Part shown: positions 7,981 to 36,387 of the stretch, piece by piece | Layout of the letters: every line of letters starts with the position of its first letter | Numbering within the stretch: position 1 is the stretch's first letter | DNA from: Halopiger aswanensis | GTDB lineage: Archaea > Halobacteriota > Halobacteria > Halobacteriales > Natrialbaceae | NCBI RefSeq assembly: GCF_003610195.1 | Contig: NZ_RAPO01000004.1 | Span: 1 to 64,000 of the forward strand | DNA: 64,000 bases | Direction: 5' to 3' | Position numbers and translations under genes: made by a program | Notes under the pieces: model-generated | Told to the model about the DNA's origin: nothing | The model's database searches: none | Seen by the model: the letters and a program-made list of their open reading frames with translations, nothing else

Positions 7981-8982
7981 ATGCTTCGGATAGCCTTGCT
8001 GGGGTTCGGCGGATTCGGTCGGTACCTCGCACACGATCTCACGGCCCACCCCGAGACGACTATCGCAGCCGTCGCAGACGTGAATCCGGATAACCTCGAA
8101 ATCGCAGTCGACGAGTTCGGCGTCGATCCCGAGGCCTGCTACACCGACGAAGCGGATCTGTACGAACAAACGGAACTGGATGCCGTCATCATCGCAACGC
8201 CGCCGGCGTTCCACTACGACCAGATCCACACGGCGTTCGATCGCGGCCTCCACGTCCTCTGTGAGAAACCCGTCGTCGCCGACCTCGAGGAGGCACGCGA
8301 CGTCGAAGCCATGTTCGCCGACAGTTCGAAGGTGCTAATGGCGGGCTATCAGCGCCACCTCGAGCCGGCGTTCATCCGCGGCCGCGAGCGCTGGGCGGAG
8401 GGCGACGCGGAGGCGACGTTCATGACCGGCGAGCTCCTGCAGGACTGGACCGACCACTTCGAGAAGGGAACGAACTGGCGGCTCGATCCCGATATCGGCT
8501 GCCGCGGCCACCTCTTCAGCGTCGGCACGCACGTCCTCGAATCGCTGCTCTGGATGACCGGCCTCGAGCCCGAGTTCGTCACCGCCGACATGGCGTTCTA
8601 CGACGACGCGAATCGGATCGACCAGCGCGCGACGCTGTCGATCCGGTTCGAGAACGGCGCCGTCGCGACGATGGCCGACTCGGCCGTCGCGACGACTGAC
8701 CGCGAACGGATTCAGATCTGGGACGACGACGGCGCGTTCGAGTTCACTCGTCGGGATTGGGGTGAGCCGACGCTGACGGAGATCGATGACACAGGGGAGG
8801 ACACCGCCCCGGACATCGACCACAGTAGCGGCCGCGGAAAGATCGAGGCGTTCGTCGAGGCGATCACGACGGACGCCGAACCGCCGGCGACGCTCGAGGA
8901 CGTGATTCGCGTGACGGCGCTGCTCGATGCAGCGTACGAGGCTGCCCGAACCGGAGAGCGGGTCGAAGTCAAACTCGAGTGA
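7981..8982 (+). CDS. Gfo/Idh/MocA family NAD(P)-dependent oxidoreductase
   Basis: Cytoplasmic dehydrogenase of 333 aa acting on a sugar, inositol or sugar acid. The N-terminal Rossmann fold opens with IALLGFGGFGRYLA (about residues 4-17), and the family's CEKPV motif with its conserved Lys is at about residue 97. The C-terminal alpha/beta domain includes DIGCRGHLFSVGTHVLE, which contributes the catalytic His. The length is normal. The gene stands alone but lies on the same replicon as many glycosidases, so a role in sugar oxidation is likely. The exact substrate cannot be read from sequence. The start ATG follows a weak TATA-like ataacta about 30 bases upstream. Confidence 0.85.
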   Translation: MLRIALLGFGGFGRYLAHDLTAHPETTIAAVADVNPDNLEIAVDEFGVDPEACYTDEADLYEQTELDAVIIATPPAFHYDQIHTAFDRGLHVLCEKPVVADLEEARDVEAMFADSSKVLMAGYQRHLEPAFIRGRERWAEGDAEATFMTGELLQDWTDHFEKGTNWRLDPDIGCRGHLFSVGTHVLESLLWMTGLEPEFVTADMAFYDDANRIDQRATLSIRFENGAVATMADSAVATTDRERIQIWDDDGAFEFTRRDWGEPTLTEIDDTGEDTAPDIDHSSGRGKIEAFVEAITTDAEPPATLEDVIRVTALLDAAYEAARTGERVEVKLE

Positions 8983-9752
8983 GCGGGTGAGGAAGCGAGT
9001 AAGGGCGACTACAGGTTGCTTTTCCGGGCTGAACGTCGACGAGACGCTGTTCTGTGCCGGGGTATGCGAGAGCCGACTACCGAACGCAGTCGATCCTCTA
9101 ACCGCGGTACTGCGGTTCTGCGAATGTGTGAGATAATATTGGCAGTTAGGCCGAGCGTCGGACTTTGCCCTCGACTACGGTGAGTCGGGGTACTCGCTCT
9201 TATCCCTAATATGATGAGTTGCTATATTTAAATTTGTGATTATGAAATATTTTTATCATTCAGTAAAGTCAACACATCCGGCATTACCGGATAATCGGAA
9301 AGGGGCCGTTGGCGACAGTGTCGGCCGTCTTAAAATAACAAACGACTAGCCCTGTTCTCTAAGTACGTATCTCCACCAGTAATCCGGCGTAGAAATTTGA
9401 GTTTGTGCATAGAGACGACGAAAAATCCGCTCTCGCCGGACAACGCGAAGATCGAAGTCCTTGCCAGAGTGCATTCTTGAGAGTGCCATGAACACCTGAG
9501 AGTCTACCCAAGGCGCCGAGGCGCTGAGGCGACGACGAGTACTCGTACTCGAGGCGGAGGATAGTATTCGTCGGCTGGCTTCAGTCGGCACAGCGATACA
9601 GTCCGATCGCAAGAGCGCCAGCGACTGGTACCGACGAACGTATCCACCGAATAGCACGGGAGTCACGGCCTCGGGAGCCGACCGCGCTGTTCGGCCGAGC
9701 TGCAAGGACACGCGACGAATACCCGAATCGGGCCGGGATCGCAAGTGCGGCG
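8983..9752. other. Long intergenic region; possible degraded sequence
   Basis: The part from about 9130 to 9300 is strongly AT-rich and non-coding. From 9346 to 9744 one minus-strand frame stays open for 132 codons, but its product is Arg- and Ser-rich with no recognisable family, and neighbouring frames on that strand do no better. It could be a decayed gene. Nothing firm can be assigned. Confidence 0.3.
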
Positions 9753-10739
9753 TTACTCGAACTCGGGAATGACTTCCTCGCCGAACAGGCGAATCTGGTC
9801 CTCGACGAGGTCCTTCGGCATACCCGAGTGGTGGAAGCGAAGCGCGAGGTGGTCCAGCGGGAACCGTTCCTGCATCGACTCGATCTGCTCGACGATCTGT
9901 TCGGGCGTGCCGTAGATGAACCGGTCGTCGGCCAGTTCCTCGAAGTCTTCGACCGAGTCGGCGGTCATCAGCGGATGCGAGAACTCCCCGCCGTACTCGT
10001 CGAGGTAGGTGCGGTGGACGTACTCCTTGCGCTCCATGACCTCTTCTTCGGTTTCGGCGATAACCGCTTCGCGCATCAGCGGGTGCTCGATCTCGTCCCA
10101 GTCCTGCTCACTGTCTTCGATGTGCTCGCGCTGCTGTTCTTTCCGATCCTCGACGATGCCGAGGTCGGCGACGACGCCGGGCACCCAGGCGTCGCTGAAC
10201 TTCACCGAGCGCGCGATCTGTTTGTCGCCCCAGCCGCCGACCCACAGATCGGGGCGCGGTTCCTGCACGGTCGGCGGCAGCGGCTGCCAGTCCTCGACCG
10301 AGAAGAACGGACAGTCGAAGGTGATCGGTTCGTCCGACGAGAGGAATTCATCGAGGAAGCGCAGCCCTTCGATCATCCGTCCGGCGCGTTCGTCCATCGG
10401 CACGTCGAACGCCTCGAACTCCTCCTCGACGTACCCCAGACCGACCCCGAGCGTGAGTCGTCCGTTCGAGATATTGTCGAGCATCGCCGCTCGCTGTGCC
10501 ACGTGCAGCGGGTGATACAGCGGCAGAATCAGTACCGACGTGACCAGCTCGAGCTCTTCGGTGCCGGTACCGATGCTGGTCAGCCGCGTCAGCGGCGACG
10601 GCCAGTAGTTCTCGCCCTCGGTCGCCTGGTGGTCGTTAACCCAGCAGGACTCGAAACCGACGTCTTCGGCGAGCTGACAGTGCTCGACGACGCCGTCCCA
10701 CGACTGTCCGCCTTCGACGGGGAAGATCCCGAATTTCAT
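9753..10739 (-). CDS. LLM-class (luciferase-like) F420- or flavin-dependent oxidoreductase
   Basis: TIM-barrel oxidoreductase of 328 aa. Family features are the opening strand KFGIFPVEGG, the WVNDHQ segment near residue 35, the VTSVLILPLYHPLHVAQRAAMLD segment (about residues 65-87), the NGRLTLGVGLGYVEEEFEAF cofactor region (about 90-109) and a C-terminal IYGTPEQIVEQIE block. In haloarchaea such proteins usually use F420, and the natural substrate is generally unknown. In the minus orientation a TATA-like tgtaaatag sits about 30 bases upstream of the ATG, which suggests a near-leaderless transcript. A degenerate copy of its 5' end lies 1 kb upstream. Confidence 0.83.
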   Translation of the reverse strand: MKFGIFPVEGGQSWDGVVEHCQLAEDVGFESCWVNDHQATEGENYWPSPLTRLTSIGTGTEELELVTSVLILPLYHPLHVAQRAAMLDNISNGRLTLGVGLGYVEEEFEAFDVPMDERAGRMIEGLRFLDEFLSSDEPITFDCPFFSVEDWQPLPPTVQEPRPDLWVGGWGDKQIARSVKFSDAWVPGVVADLGIVEDRKEQQREHIEDSEQDWDEIEHPLMREAVIAETEEEVMERKEYVHRTYLDEYGGEFSHPLMTADSVEDFEELADDRFIYGTPEQIVEQIESMQERFPLDHLALRFHHSGMPKDLVEDQIRLFGEEVIPEFE

Positions 10740-25468: not shown

Positions 25469-28600
<3,132 letters not shown>

Positions 28601-30155: not shown

Positions 30156-31220
30156 ATGGAAAAGTTCCACCCGTATGATGGATTAGCGTGGGATGAGCAC
30201 GCGCAACATCTAGCGCAGTTTCACACGCACGAGCCGCGAAACACGATACGCGAGGACACGTGCATTCACGAGCCAAGTATCGATGCAGAAACTATTCCGA
30301 TCGACGATCTTGGGAAAAACAACCTCTCGCCAGCCTCCTCGCCCAAAACGTTACTGAAGAAATATAGAAACGTAGGATATACTGTATTTTCGTTAACAGA
30401 ACACGAATACTACGTAGAGCGCTCGAAGTACAAGGATGTCCCCTACGAAGAGATGCCCGAGCGACTCGAGCAAACGAGTTGGCCTTGGGCGAAGTGGGAC
30501 GTCGATCCGGCGGAATTCGGTGTGGTCGCGCTTCCGGGAACCGAATTACGGGCGTCGTATCACGGCTCGCTTCACGATGTGATCGGCCTGGACACGGATA
30601 TCGGACACGGACGACAGGCCTCGATAACTGCGCTACTCGACCGTATCGCGGATCAGGACGGCCTGGCGATTCTCCCCCACCCTTCGAAATACAACGACGC
30701 GTCGGATTACGAGCAATACGTCCCGGTGTTCGAAGCCGCTGATGTCCTCCTCGGAATGGAAATCTTCAACGGGAACGATCGGTACCCGAGTCGCGCCCTG
30801 TGGGATCGGTTGCTCACGCATTTCGGACCCGATCGACCGATCTGGGCGTTCGCCGGCGATGACTACCACGGCCGCGCCCGCCCGCAGGACGGTAAACGGT
30901 TCAACCGCTCACGGAACGTCTTGCTCCTCTCGACTCATTCGAAGGCTGCCGTTCGAGAGGCGTTGACTACGGGCCAGTTTTACGTTCAGCACAATGGGGA
31001 CCATCACGCGCCGTTCATCCACGCAATCGACGTGACGGACGACGCAATTTCCGTCGATGCCCCCGATGCAGTGCGAATAGAGTGGATCGCGGACGGCGAG
31101 GTCGTCGCAACCGGAGAAACGATTCCGAACGACCGATTCGTCGATCGGACGTACGTCCGAGCAGAAGTTCACGGAGACGGCCGAGCCGTTAGCTGTACCC
31201 AACCGTTCTATCCGGTCTGA
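30156..31220 (+). CDS. PHP-domain metal-dependent phosphoesterase
   Basis: Cytoplasmic hydrolase of 354 aa with the polymerase-and-histidinol-phosphatase metal-binding motifs in order: QFHTHEP (about residues 21-27), SLTEHEYY (about 79-86), ALPGTELRA (about 127-135), LPHPSK (about 173-178), GMEIFNG and AFAGDDYHG (about 228-240). A C-terminal beta domain follows (about 280-354). The His/Asp/Glu ligand set appears complete, so it should hydrolyse a phosphate ester. The substrate is unknown. It lies 87 bases upstream of an inositol-monophosphatase-like gene on the same strand, suggesting a shared pathway. Confidence 0.78.
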   Translation: MEKFHPYDGLAWDEHAQHLAQFHTHEPRNTIREDTCIHEPSIDAETIPIDDLGKNNLSPASSPKTLLKKYRNVGYTVFSLTEHEYYVERSKYKDVPYEEMPERLEQTSWPWAKWDVDPAEFGVVALPGTELRASYHGSLHDVIGLDTDIGHGRQASITALLDRIADQDGLAILPHPSKYNDASDYEQYVPVFEAADVLLGMEIFNGNDRYPSRALWDRLLTHFGPDRPIWAFAGDDYHGRARPQDGKRFNRSRNVLLLSTHSKAAVREALTTGQFYVQHNGDHHAPFIHAIDVTDDAISVDAPDAVRIEWIADGEVVATGETIPNDRFVDRTYVRAEVHGDGRAVSCTQPFYPV

Positions 31221-31307
31221 ACGAGAACGGAGACCGACTAGACTAGGTATATAGCCCCACATAGCACTCATAGCAAACGAATAGGTGGTCACCTGGGCAC
31301 AAACCGT

Positions 31308-32078
31308 ATGGCTCAGTATCCTCACCTGTGGGCTGCGCTGTTAGCCGCCCGTCGCGGTGCTGAAGCGCTTGCAGCTTGGGACGAGCACCATCCGAATCGC
31401 ACAGCAGTCCGAGAACCGAACAAAAGCTGCGAGTTAGCCACTGAGGAAGCGATTTTAACCGAGCTCGAGCGTCACTTCCCCGAGCACAACGTGATTTCGG
31501 AGGAGAGCTATCCGGAGTTCACAACGAAACCGCGATGGATCGTCGATCCACTGGACGGACGGATTAACTATCTCAACGGCATTCCCCACTATTCCGTGTC
31601 GATCGCGTTTGAGGGGACGGGAGCAGCGGACGTGAGCGTCGTCTATCATATCCCCTCGGATCGGCTATTTACGGCTATTGAGGGGCACGGTGCGTACCTG
31701 AACGGACGCCCGATTTCAGTTTCAGAGACGGCCACACTCTCGGATGCGCTGGTGGTTACGGGGTTCGATCCGACGACGATCGAGTCACAACACTTCGATC
31801 AGTTTCGGTCACTGATCGACCGGACCCAAGGGGTGAGACGGTTCGGATCCGCCGCTACTGAACTCGCAATGGTTGCCAACGGACAGTTCGACATTTTCTT
31901 CGAGCGAGAGCTCAGCATCTGGGATACGGCCGCGGGAATCAAACTCATCGAGGAGGCCGGCGGCGAGATCACCCGGATCGAGCGACTGAACGGGAGTAAC
32001 CGTGAGATGGTCCTCGCATCGAATCCACAAATCCACCAGAGAGCCGTCTCTCTCATCTCCTCGAGTAGGCAAGGATAG
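31308..32078 (+). CDS. Inositol-monophosphatase-family protein with altered catalytic motif
   Basis: Protein of 256 aa of the IMPase/FBPase/CysQ fold. Metal-ligand regions are visible: VISEESYPE (about residue 62), VDPLDGRINYLNG (about 80-92) and SIWDTAAGIKLIEEAGG (about 203-219). The usual DGT of motif A reads DGR, and the upstream segment reads ELATEEA where most members have a T-x-x-D arrangement. Activity or substrate may therefore differ from typical inositol phosphatases. The gene follows the PHP gene on the same strand and is convergent with a second, canonical IMPase gene. Confidence 0.75.
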   Translation: MAQYPHLWAALLAARRGAEALAAWDEHHPNRTAVREPNKSCELATEEAILTELERHFPEHNVISEESYPEFTTKPRWIVDPLDGRINYLNGIPHYSVSIAFEGTGAADVSVVYHIPSDRLFTAIEGHGAYLNGRPISVSETATLSDALVVTGFDPTTIESQHFDQFRSLIDRTQGVRRFGSAATELAMVANGQFDIFFERELSIWDTAAGIKLIEEAGGEITRIERLNGSNREMVLASNPQIHQRAVSLISSSRQG

Positions 32079-32103
32079 TCGAGTGGCGACCCGAATCGGC
32101 ACT

Positions 32104-32922
32104 TCAGTTCGTGTCGGGGTTCGCTGTTTCGTTTCGATAGAGCTGACGCAGGTCGCCGTGAACGCGACCGTTCGAGGCGATGATGCCGACGTCCCGCTCC
32201 TCAGCCGTGAAATTCACCGGCGATCCGTCCCAATCGGTTACCTTGCCACCGGCTTCCTCGACGAGTAAACTTCCCGCAGCAACGTCCCAGGGCGATGTAT
32301 ACTTGTCTAGAAAGCACTCGAACGTTCCGTTCGCAACGAACGAAAGATCACACGCGCCGGCACCGAGTTGGCGAAGTCCCCGCGACCGGTCAGGAGGGAA
32401 GAGGTGCTGATACACCCGACGGAGCCGGCTGTCATCGATGAGAGGCGGCGAGATGCCGAATAAGACGGCGCTCTCCGGAAGTGTATCAGCCGACGACACG
32501 AATATTCGTCGTCCGTTCCGTTGCGCACCGTTACCTGCAACTGCCGTGTACGTCTCCTCGCGTTGGGGATGGACGACGACACCGACGATCGGTTCTCCGT
32601 CGTCTAGCAACGCGATTGACACGCAGTAATGTTCGAAGCCGGTAACGTAATTTGCGGTCCCATCGAGCGGATCGACGACCCACGTGAATCGCGCCGCTCC
32701 ATCTCGGTCGGTCTCTTCGCTAATAATCGCGTGATCCGGGTGGGTCTCCGTGATGATCGAGCGAATCGTTCGCTCGGCACGGAGGTCGATCTCCGTTACC
32801 AGCGTCCCCTCTCGTTTCTGCGTCATGGTGTAGTCGGACTGAAAATTCGATCGGAGTAGCGTACTTGCTTCTGTCGCTGCTTCCTTCGCTGTCGTCAGGA
32901 ATTCGTCGAATGCAGTTCCCAT
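32104..32922 (-). CDS. Inositol-monophosphatase-family phosphatase
   Basis: Protein of 272 aa from the ATG at 32922. The motif set is canonical: LVTEIDLRAE (about 44-53), IISEETDRDG (about 71-80), WVVDPLDGTANYVTG (about 87-101) and SPWDVAAGSLLVEEAGG (about 214-230). It should dephosphorylate an inositol, sugar or nucleotide phosphate using magnesium. It lies 70 bases downstream of an ECF-type T-component gene and is probably the last gene of that operon. A longer frame from 33069 overlaps the T gene and is not preferred. Confidence 0.82.
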   Translation of the reverse strand: MGTAFDEFLTTAKEAATEASTLLRSNFQSDYTMTQKREGTLVTEIDLRAERTIRSIITETHPDHAIISEETDRDGAARFTWVVDPLDGTANYVTGFEHYCVSIALLDDGEPIVGVVVHPQREETYTAVAGNGAQRNGRRIFVSSADTLPESAVLFGISPPLIDDSRLRRVYQHLFPPDRSRGLRQLGAGACDLSFVANGTFECFLDKYTSPWDVAAGSLLVEEAGGKVTDWDGSPVNFTAEERDVGIIASNGRVHGDLRQLYRNETANPDTN

Positions 32923-32992
32923 GTGTTCTGATGCTGGTGTCTGGATTCGGGTTCTACTGGCGTCGATTGCAGTGACAAAAAGCGGTGGATGG

Positions 32993-33808
32993 CTACACGA
33001 ATGGAAAGATGATGCTCGCGACGATGATCGCCGAACCGCCCATGAAGAGTAGGTCAAACCAGCCGACACGCAAGTCGCCTAACTGCAATTCACGGCTTTT
33101 CGTGCTCTCTAACGAATACGAGAACCCTCTCGTTTCGAGTGCTTCGACCGTCACGCGGCTTCGTTTTGCGACGTCGAAGATCATCGGATAGAACGCCTTG
33201 ATCGAGAGCCGAATCAGGTAGACGTAATAGCGACATTTGAAGCGACCGGGCGATTCCGGTGCTCGGCTTCGAAGCCGGTAGACGGTTACCGTCGCGTGGT
33301 ACTCCTCGATGAGAACGGGTAGCATTCGGTACCCGTAGCTGATCGCGAACGTAAACTGACGGGGAACGCCGATGCTCATGAACGCGCGACTGATGTTTTT
33401 CGGGGACATCCCGGAGAATACGGCGATCGACGTCACCGAGACGATCGTCAGTTTCGTCGTGTACGGGAGCAGTGCCGTCGCACTCCGGACGAAACTCCCG
33501 CCCATCAGCACCGTTACGAACGCGTACAAGAGCACGTTCGTGACGACGCCGAACGCGAGGAGCGCAATGAGGTACTTGCTGACCCGAGACACCACCGCGA
33601 GGATGGACACGAACGCGAGCAGTCCACCGAGGATCCGTAGATCGTAAAACAACCACGGAATGACGAGGAACGCCGCGTACCACGCGAGTAGTACGCGAGG
33701 ATCGAGTCGATTGAAAATCGTTCCCTCGTTGTCGTACGCAGTGCGCAGCAGATCCTGCTTCAACGACTCGATCGACAGCGCGTCGCGAAACTCTTCCTGG
33801 TAGCTCAT
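32993..33808 (-). CDS. ECF-type transporter transmembrane T component (EcfT/CbiQ family)
   Basis: Membrane coupling protein of 271 aa that links the S component to the ATPases. Hydrophobic helices are at about residues 42-75, 83-110 and 130-150, and the final one at about 247-268. The family's cytoplasmic coupling helices carry the Ala-Arg-Gly-type motifs, seen here as YRLRSRAPES (about 178-187) and EALETRGFS (about 222-230). The start overlaps the ATPase stop by 4 bases, indicating translational coupling. Confidence 0.82.
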   Translation of the reverse strand: MSYQEEFRDALSIESLKQDLLRTAYDNEGTIFNRLDPRVLLAWYAAFLVIPWLFYDLRILGGLLAFVSILAVVSRVSKYLIALLAFGVVTNVLLYAFVTVLMGGSFVRSATALLPYTTKLTIVSVTSIAVFSGMSPKNISRAFMSIGVPRQFTFAISYGYRMLPVLIEEYHATVTVYRLRSRAPESPGRFKCRYYVYLIRLSIKAFYPMIFDVAKRSRVTVEALETRGFSYSLESTKSRELQLGDLRVGWFDLLFMGGSAIIVASIIFPFV

Positions 33809-35520
33809 CGGTTGTCCCCCTCGAGTTCCGGGGTCCGTCCGGCGAGTCGGTCGGCCAACTCAGAGACGGTCAGCGCAGGCGGTGAGATATCGAGGTCGTG
33901 GCTCAATCGAACGACTTGCGGTGCCCGTAGGTTGCATCGTTCGAGCCGATCGAGGTCGGAAAACACGTCTCGCAGCGCCCCATCCGTTTCGATGGCACCG
34001 TCGTTCAACACGATCACCCGCGTCGCCCATTCGGCGACCAGCTCGAGATCGTGTGTGGCGATGATAACCGTCTCGACGCGGTTTTCAGCGCGGTGTATCG
34101 TCTGTTCGACTTCGCGGCGACTCGCTAGATCGAGGCTTCCGGTCGGTTCGTCGAACAACACGATCGACGGGTCCGTCGCCAACCCGATCCCGAGCGATGC
34201 GCGACGCTGCTCGCCGACGCTCAACAGTCGTCCGTCACGGTCCTGTAGCCGTTCGAGATCCAGAAACTCGATGACCTCGTCGACTCGTTCCTCAACGTCG
34301 GCGACGTCACGTTCTCGTAAGTAGTAGGCAATGTCTCCCCGGACCGAGTCGCGGATAAACATGTCCTCGGGGTTTTGATCGACGTAGGTAATGTCCGCTG
34401 CCAGTTCTTCCGGAAGAACAGCATCGGTGTCGGTGCCGTTGATCGTTACGCGTCCAGTATCGGGCTTTTCGATCCCGGTAATCAGCCGCAATAACGTCGA
34501 TTTGCCGGCACCGTTAGCACCGACGAGCGCGACTCGTTCGTCCGGATAGAGGTCCAACGAGAAGTCCTCCAGCACTCGAACGTCTCCATCGCGCAGCGTC
34601 GTATACCCGTGATCGACGTGCTGGAAGGAGATGATCGGCTCGTCTCCCGATCGGCCTCGAGGGCGGTCGTGGTCGTCGGGTTGAGCTGGGTCGTGCTCGA
34701 GCGACCGATACCGAGCGACCGCATCGGCGTATGTCGTCGGGAGCCTCCCGTCGTCGTCGACCGTTCTGGCGACTCGAGTTACTTGTGGCGGGTGAATACG
34801 CTGTTCTCGTAATTCTTCGATTCGATTGAGCCCCTCGTCGGTCGACTGCTTCCATTTGACGGTGCCGTCAGCAACCAGTGCAACGGTATCGCAGTACTCG
34901 GCGATGAACTCGGTATGGTGCTCGATCGTGACGATCGTTATTCCGTCTTCGTTTAGCTCCTGTAACCGTTCGTACGTTTCGTGCGCACGAACGGGGTCGA
35001 GTTGTGCAGCCGGTTCGTCGACGACGAGGATGTCGGGATCCATCGTCAACGCCGCACCGAGGGCCACCAGATGCTGCTGGCCACCGCTCAACTCCCAGAT
35101 AAAGCGCCCATCGACCGTTTCGATGTCTAACTGTGCGAGCGTGTTGAGTGCTCGCTCGCGGTAATCATCTCGTCCGTAGTTGACGGGTCCGAACGTCAGT
35201 TCGTCGTAGACGGTCGGCGTTACGAGCTGATTTTCGAACTCCTGAAACACGTAGCCGACATCCCGGGAGAGGTCTGCAACGGACGCATCACGCGTATCCC
35301 GACCGGCGACACGGACTCGCCCGTCGAACTCGCCCTCGAAGAAGTGGGGGACGAGTCCGTTGAACGTTTTACACAGCGTCGTCTTTCCGCTCCCGTTTCC
35401 GCCCAGGATAGCGATAAACTCGCCGCGATCGATACGCAAATCCGCCTTCTCTAGCGTCGGTTCGTCAACCCCCGGATATCGGAAGGTGACATCCGACACG
35501 TCGATCGCTGTCTCTGTCAT
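33805..35520 (-). CDS. ECF-type transporter ATPase, two fused ATP-binding domains
   Basis: Protein of 571 aa with two complete ABC ATPase domains, equivalent to EcfA1 and EcfA2 fused. Domain 1: Walker A GGNGSGKTT (about residue 40), signature LSGGQQHLVALG (about 142), Walker B ILVVDEPAAQLDP. Domain 2: Walker A GANGAGKST (about 336), signature LLSVGEQRRASLG (about 432), Walker B IVLFDEPTGSLDL. The second signature reads SVGE rather than SGGQ, as often in ECF A2 domains. The linker between domains is Asp/Arg-rich. The ATG at 35520 is used, and an in-frame GTG at 35526 is possible. Similar fused ATPases occur in YkoEDC-type vitamin transporters. Confidence 0.84.
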   Translation of the reverse strand: MTETAIDVSDVTFRYPGVDEPTLEKADLRIDRGEFIAILGGNGSGKTTLCKTFNGLVPHFFEGEFDGRVRVAGRDTRDASVADLSRDVGYVFQEFENQLVTPTVYDELTFGPVNYGRDDYRERALNTLAQLDIETVDGRFIWELSGGQQHLVALGAALTMDPDILVVDEPAAQLDPVRAHETYERLQELNEDGITIVTIEHHTEFIAEYCDTVALVADGTVKWKQSTDEGLNRIEELREQRIHPPQVTRVARTVDDDGRLPTTYADAVARYRSLEHDPAQPDDHDRPRGRSGDEPIISFQHVDHGYTTLRDGDVRVLEDFSLDLYPDERVALVGANGAGKSTLLRLITGIEKPDTGRVTINGTDTDAVLPEELAADITYVDQNPEDMFIRDSVRGDIAYYLRERDVADVEERVDEVIEFLDLERLQDRDGRLLSVGEQRRASLGIGLATDPSIVLFDEPTGSLDLASRREVEQTIHRAENRVETVIIATHDLELVAEWATRVIVLNDGAIETDGALRDVFSDLDRLERCNLRAPQVVRLSHDLDISPPALTVSELADRLAGRTPELEGDNR

Positions 35521-35532
35521 GCTCACGGCTGG

Positions 35533-36387
35533 TTACGCGGAGTGTTTTGCGCGCTGCCAGACGACGATCGCGACGAGCGCAGCCACGACGATCGGGACGG
35601 CAATAAACATCTCACCGTAGGCCTCCATGAATTCGGGCTCCCACACGACGTTCAGTCCAAAGCCAGCTTCTTCGGCCGCTGCAAACCCGAACGCGAGCGG
35701 GAACGCGAGCAGTACGGACAGTGCTGCTTTCCACGAAAAGCCGCGGACCATGGACGCGCCACGGGTCCCCTTGTACGGTTCCATCCCCATCAGCGGTTCA
35801 ATCTTCCCGTGGAGTTTGGGATACAGATAGAGCGCCGGAATAACCCCGAAGATGATGCCCGTAATCACCATCTGCGTGATGAAGTCGACACCCTCGAGAA
35901 CGAGTATGCTCTCGGGGAGTCCCGGCACTGCTTCCAGTTCTTCGACGCCGATGTACACCTTCCCGATATCGACGAACATGGCGAGGAACTCGTTGAGGCC
36001 CTCAGCGATAAGGACGACGGCAGCGAGTTGACGGCGATTTTTCGGGTCCTGAAACAGCAGCGCCGCGAAAAAGAAACACGTCGAAACGAGCAGCAAATCT
36101 TCCATCACACCGAGGCCGTTGAAATCGCCCAACAGAATGTCCTCGAAGACGACCTCCCCCATCGGAACTGCGAGTGCAGCCCAGAAGGTTCGAAACAGCA
36201 ACACCAGCACGATCGGGATAAAGATGAAGTCACCAACGCCCAGTTCCAACGGTCCGACGTCGAACTCGGGTAGTACCTCTGTTATCGCGTATTGGAGCCC
36301 ACTGAGGGACATGACGAAGATGAACACCGTCATATCCTTTTGACCGAAGCTGAACCAGTTCGTATTCTCTGTCGCCATCTCTGACAT
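35533..36387 (-). CDS. Putative substrate-specific (S) membrane component of an ECF-type transporter
   Basis: Integral membrane protein of 284 aa from the ATG at 36387, with about six helices (about 20-40, 55-85, 105-125, 140-160, 190-215, 235-285). It is the first gene of the operon and ends 12 bases before the ATPase ATG. Its size, position and topology fit the S component, which binds the substrate. Acidic membrane-edge residues (EVLPEF, GEVVFEDILLGDF, EDLLLV) are unusual and could line a binding site. No known vitamin S family is recognised, so the substrate is open. A TATA-like atataaac lies upstream in the minus orientation near 36430. Confidence 0.68.
   Translation of the reverse strand: MSEMATENTNWFSFGQKDMTVFIFVMSLSGLQYAITEVLPEFDVGPLELGVGDFIFIPIVLVLLFRTFWAALAVPMGEVVFEDILLGDFNGLGVMEDLLLVSTCFFFAALLFQDPKNRRQLAAVVLIAEGLNEFLAMFVDIGKVYIGVEELEAVPGLPESILVLEGVDFITQMVITGIIFGVIPALYLYPKLHGKIEPLMGMEPYKGTRGASMVRGFSWKAALSVLLAFPLAFGFAAAEEAGFGLNVVWEPEFMEAYGEMFIAVPIVVAALVAIVVWQRAKHSA

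Follow-up and report, generated by a model that had tools for sequence, protein, structure and literature searches.

The locus described here, within a 64,000-nucleotide stretch of Halopiger aswanensis DNA (the window), is best explained as a dedicated ECF importer of the group I type, whose S component belongs to a new family and whose cargo is an organophosphorus compound that is dephosphorylated inside the cell, a reading to which we assign a probability of about 0.5. As far as the class of enzyme goes, the evidence bears out the association of the transporter with phosphatases; the direction of transport, the class of substrate and the order of reactions are what we infer. The genes for S, a fused double ATPase, a T component and an inositol-monophosphatase-family enzyme (IMP1) form a minus-strand operon, on which a PHP-type gene and a second IMPase-family gene (IMP2) converge from the plus strand:

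35533-36387, minus strand: S component, a 284-residue membrane protein of an unnamed family.
33805-35526, minus strand: fused double ATPase (EcfA-EcfA'), with two ABC_tran stretches; TIGR04520 at 345 bits and TIGR04521 at 338 bits.
32993-33808, minus strand: T component (EcfT/CbiQ family); PF02361 at 34 bits against a cut-off of 25.
32104-32922, minus strand: IMP1, inositol-monophosphatase family; PF00459 at 209 bits, with DPLDGT, WDVAAG and SEE intact.
31308-32078, plus strand: IMP2, IMPase family; PF00459 at 169 bits, with the Thr replaced (DPLDGR) in the motif alignment.
30156-31220, plus strand: candidate PHP-type (CehA/McbA-like) metallohydrolase, from a sub-threshold NF038032 match and invariant motif residues.

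The S stop at 35533 and the GTG start of the ATPase at 35526 are separated by 6 bases, the ATPase and T genes overlap by 4 bases (33805-33808) and a gap of 70 bases follows between the T stop at 32993 and the ATG of IMP1 at 32922. IMP1 and IMP2 are convergent and 25 bases apart, and 87 bases lie between the PHP-type gene and IMP2. An earlier, sequence-only reading of this DNA had placed six genes here and all are present, with junctions near the figures that it gave; the canonical IMPase that it saw after T is borne out by IMP1, a PF00459 member in which the EE, DPxDGT and WDxA motifs are all intact. Its count of three phosphatase-type enzymes is optimistic, because IMP2 is without the catalytic Thr of DPxDGT. 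The closest named relative of the operon lies on plasmid pHALXA01 of Halopiger xanaduensis, with an S protein 97.5% identical. A GH2 beta-galactosidase-like gene (lacZ, 25469-28594) lies beyond the PHP gene in the window; we rejected a link to the locus, as among the loci examined it was seen only here and in H. xanaduensis.

The ATPase comprises two ECF ATPase halves, with both TIGR04520 and TIGR04521 above cut-off, and T scores as a CbiQ/EcfT family member and is annotated as T in the RefSeq record of an operon 92-98% identical to that of the window; both are plain ECF subunits. S had been described as belonging to no recognised family, and we indeed obtained no match to any Pfam, NCBIfam or PHROG model, nor any between an S profile and PDB sequences; the RefSeq label of its relatives is 'hypothetical protein'. 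Structure prediction, which had been proposed as a check, gave an AlphaFold model (pLDDT 81, pTM 0.77) for which the best Foldseek matches were ThiT, RibU, 5edl (which we take to be YkoE) and other ECF S components, with probabilities of 0.95-1.0, though with E values of 0.1-0.3, and with TM scores, by target, of about 0.5-0.66 against top PDB entries such as ThiT and RibU. Because the top meaningful fold matches of the model are ECF S components, we accept S as a predicted ECF S component of a new family.

In the loops of S that are predicted to face outward, nine or ten of the conserved residues are acidic (E37, E48, D83, E96, D140, E149, E150, E152, E159 and E165) and one, K143, is basic, an odd composition for a site that binds an anion, unless a cation forms a bridge. 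Since the conserved polar loop residues are nearly all acidic, we must allow for a ligand that is zwitterionic, bridged by a metal or itself a cation. One alternative, which we regard as unlikely, is that the cargo of S is a micronutrient or cofactor precursor, probably cationic and not phosphorylated, and that the hydrolases act inside on its phosphorylated or diester form, in salvage or remodelling; the acidic loops would suit such a cation, and ECF S components of known ligand mostly bind vitamins. The same residues would also fit import of a divalent metal ion required by the neighbouring enzymes, which come without exception from metal-dependent families (PHP, EndoIV, IMPase, ComB and HAD). 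We consider metal import improbable, as S has no match to the CbiM/NikM families and, many as metalloenzymes are, the recurring partners belong only to phosphoesterase families.

The PHP-type protein of the window has no Pfam match and a sub-threshold match to the NCBIfam CehA/McbA model (NF038032; 38.6 bits, E 8e-10, cut-off 80). Motifs resembling metal ligands are invariant across five orthologues (HTH 23-25, EH 82-83, GTE 128-130, HP 175-176 and GDDYH 234-238), and it is on these motifs and the NCBIfam match that the putative PHP-type assignment rests; a structure model was unusable (pLDDT 37). Full-length orthologues of this type occur in 5/80 genomes, all five of them S carriers, and in every case adjoin S. 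The closest solved relative of IMP1 is 5zhh (E 8.6e-43), and IMP1 is found beside S in only two other genomes, both of close relatives. In IMP2 orthologues A or S occupies the position of the catalytic Thr (R in the window), the metal Asp residues are kept and the EE motif is variable; the activity of IMP2 is possibly altered or weak.

In order to measure linkage in haloarchaea we built profiles from de novo clusters of the open reading frames that neighbour S and applied them to 40 S loci and, from the same genomes, to 20 loci (14 kb each) of other ECF T genes. The S, ATPase and T genes lie side by side in 40/40 of the former, and a phosphoesterase-family gene lies within 7 kb of S in 40/40 as against 0/20 of the controls, counts that are not independent events as the loci within both sets are related to one another. 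The clusters near S correspond to a ComB-like family (PF04029), a HisJ-like PHP family (PF02811) and a xylose-isomerase/EndoIV-like TIM barrel (PF01261). Three partner sets are found and never mixed, ComB with HisJ-PHP in 21 loci, ComB with EndoIV in 13 and PHP with IMPase in 4 (5 with the window), two further loci being incomplete at contig ends. The claim of a linkage between S and IMPase or PHP genes is thus narrow as literally made, as these genes are rare: PHP and IMP2 stand beside S in four haloarchaeal genomes besides the window, that is in 5/41 carriers, and IMP1 in 3; at the level of phosphoesterase class the claim stands.

A ComB-like gene is present in 37/41 S carriers versus 6/39 non-carriers, three of the six being convincing. 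The four S carriers that are without one are PHP plus IMP2 loci, and in the fifth genome of this type (G319) a ComB-like gene is found elsewhere, with an internal stop. The ComB-like partner reaches 77.7 bits with PF04029, above the cut-off, and falls far below the cut-offs of the NCBIfam ComB equivalogs; it is to be read as a family member and not, by equivalog score, as a 2-phosphosulfolactate phosphatase. For the EndoIV-like partner, which could be an isomerase instead, the best NCBIfam match is CbiR, an enzyme that acts in cobamide salvage and remodelling, at 76 bits against a cut-off of 105, a match that counts in favour of the cofactor-precursor alternative. Also in its favour are lipoyl synthase and 2-oxoacid dehydrogenase genes that adjoin some S loci; they lie near the S operon in Haloarcula/Halosimplex relatives (L036-L038, L067, L068), in two arrangements and two S clades. 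As this context is confined to those two genera we treated it as local and rejected a link to lipoate. Against the alternative, kinase, synthase or cofactor genes are not conserved beside S.

Other neighbourhoods were noted as well. In some Haloarcula loci (L039, L041, L042, L050) a 5'-nucleotidase/UshA-like gene (Pfam 5_nucleotid_C) precedes S by about 1.6 kb, in the same orientation, and adds a further phosphoesterase family. In two loci from genomes without S (L162, 8212-9022; L163, 11610-12396) a ComB-like gene is near a related protein of ATP-grasp look, and in L162 the ComB and EndoIV-like pair is present without the transporter.

The enzymes have changed repeatedly around the transporter. 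On the S tree, in which long branches, above all that of L070, limit fine placement, the partner label requires 11 changes, where 6 is the least possible, and the PHP plus IMP set originates at least twice. Within genus g47 two genomes, G319 and G269 (loci L034 and L070), have PHP proteins that are 84% and IMP2 proteins that are 87% identical; their S, ATPase and T proteins are 42%, 54% and 50% identical, respectively, and the gene order differs. Enzymes and transporter have thus been re-paired in this genus, and the conservation of PHP and IMP2 beside such different transporters argues for functional coupling.

A scan of a genome collection returned 418 S-encoding stretches, 80 of which were kept for analysis; these are from haloarchaea, Bacilli and Clostridia (Bacillota), Chloroflexota and Actinomycetota, so that relatives of S occur in at least three bacterial phyla. 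The distribution is patchy, with S in 41/391 sampled genomes of the class, across several families, and in about 1-2% or less of those in sampled bacterial phyla (5/398 and 5/249 in overlapping Bacillota samples, 1/251 and 5/296). Several copies of the operon reside on plasmids or megaplasmids. Patchiness and plasmid location are what one would expect if the linkage were a by-product of common mobile islands or plasmids with no functional coupling, an explanation that we disfavour and think very improbable: in archaea and bacteria alike, phosphoesterases of differing families turn up again and again in the same position, many partners have tight same-strand junctions, control loci carry none of these families, and the enzyme pair is retained while the transporter changes.

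In bacteria the order S-ATPase-T-PHP is found in 50/54 loci and a tandem HAD phosphatase is the partner in 3/54. In the loci of Glycomyces, Nocardiopsis and Streptomyces the gene directly upstream encodes a tandem HAD or HAD-IA protein and a LacI regulator is present, and two other actinobacterial loci, read by eye, combine PHP with a divergent HAD gene. The sequence-only reading had named two outcomes that would count against it, an S protein found chiefly beside genes for thiamine or cobalamin and a linkage that is not conserved; we found no thiamine or cobalamin link, and phosphoesterase-family genes accompany S throughout the haloarchaeal loci and in 53/54 bacterial loci. The S-ATPase-T-PHP loci usually include a divergent RpiR/SIS regulator. 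RpiR and LacI families usually sense sugars or sugar phosphates, and by analogy the effectors here would be sugar-like or phosphorylated, which tells against a cofactor precursor and, as these are not metal sensors, against a metal ion. The closest solved relative of the bacterial PHP protein is PsfC, which acts in phosphonate biosynthesis as a non-heme iron enzyme (PMC12871164), a reminder that PHP-fold proteins need not be phosphatases and can be oxidases.

Riboswitches also speak against the cofactor-precursor alternative. In seven bacterial loci the DNA directly upstream of S contained no vitamin riboswitch that reached the gathering threshold, the cobalamin and SAM riboswitch matches there lying more than 1 kb from S, and no known-vitamin riboswitch was found in the window stretch; nor was a metal riboswitch found, a further point against import of a metal ion. 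With no riboswitch directly upstream in these loci and no conserved thiamine, cobalamin or metal genes beside S, we rejected a thiamine, cobalamin or metal ECF system of known type.

Clues to the substrate come from two neighbourhoods, both read by eye and each a single-lineage observation. In a Mahella metagenome-assembled genome (L131) genes reading as PhnD-C-E-E-G-H-I-J, apparently a phosphonate/C-P lyase operon, follow S-ATPase-T-PHP on the same strand (+4277 to +10603 from the S start). In genus g47 (L164 and L165, around 8400-10300) a ComB-like gene closes a pst-phoU run, and in L165 an IMPase gene is convergent with that ComB-like gene at the end of the run. Import of a phosphorylated or sulfated compound had been proposed. 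These neighbours favour the phosphorylated half, while the sulfated half is backed by nothing beyond the name of ComB; we rejected sulfonate import, suggested by that name, as equivalog cut-offs were not reached and no further sulfonate gene was seen.

For the organophosphorus importer the following course would account for the arrangement. S would bind an extracellular phosphomonoester, phosphodiester or phosphonate-like compound, which may be zwitterionic or bridged by a metal, and by toppling in the membrane on the ATPase-T module would deliver it to the cytoplasm, where the adjoining hydrolases would strip phosphate from it. In haloarchaea one enzyme slot is taken by a hydrolase of the trinuclear-metal type (PHP or EndoIV-like) and the other by a phosphomonoesterase type (ComB-like or IMPase). 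Hydrolysis may proceed in two steps, of a diester and then of a monoester. We put forward, more tentatively, that we have here the first ECF-type system to import organophosphorus compounds, with a widespread unnamed S family and a stable core around which phosphate-releasing enzymes (PHP, EndoIV-like, ComB-like, IMPase and HAD) have been repeatedly swapped. In a search of open-licence papers we found no earlier account of the S family or of ECF and PHP genes as a pair. If the reading is true, ECF transporters gain a class of substrate through a conserved family that is linked with phosphate-releasing enzymes in both archaea and bacteria, halophiles and Bacilli acquire a means of taking up organophosphorus compounds intact, and the locus offers an unusually clear example of one transporter whose partner enzymes have repeatedly given way to non-orthologous ones. 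What is annotated across hundreds of genomes as a 'hypothetical' protein becomes a testable transporter.

Where the ligand of an ECF transporter is known, it is mainly a vitamin or a metal ion. With group I systems (dedicated A-A'-T) the present one shares the S fold, as modelled, a double ECF ATPase, a CbiQ-type T and a tight operon; it differs in an S protein of about 284 residues with about eight predicted helices rather than the usual six, in the want of a Pfam, NCBIfam or PHROG model for S, and in conserved partners that are phosphoesterase families and not vitamin or metal genes. YkoEDC of Bacillus, a thiamine-related ECF system, likewise has a fused double ATPase, and 5edl is among the fold matches of S; however, S has no sequence match to any S family, and a TPP riboswitch and thiamine genes are absent at the inspected loci. 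The partner enzymes share family membership with CehA/McbA and HisJ-type PHP proteins, ComB, IMPase/HisN and EndoIV/CbiR, and since they fall below equivalog cut-offs the known substrates of those families should not be transferred to them. Import of organophosphorus compounds would, if our reading holds, be shared with PhnCDE, which works with C-P lyase, and with UgpBAEC-type systems, and one S operon does precede a phn operon; those, however, are classical ABC importers with binding proteins, whereas the system of the window is an ECF transporter.
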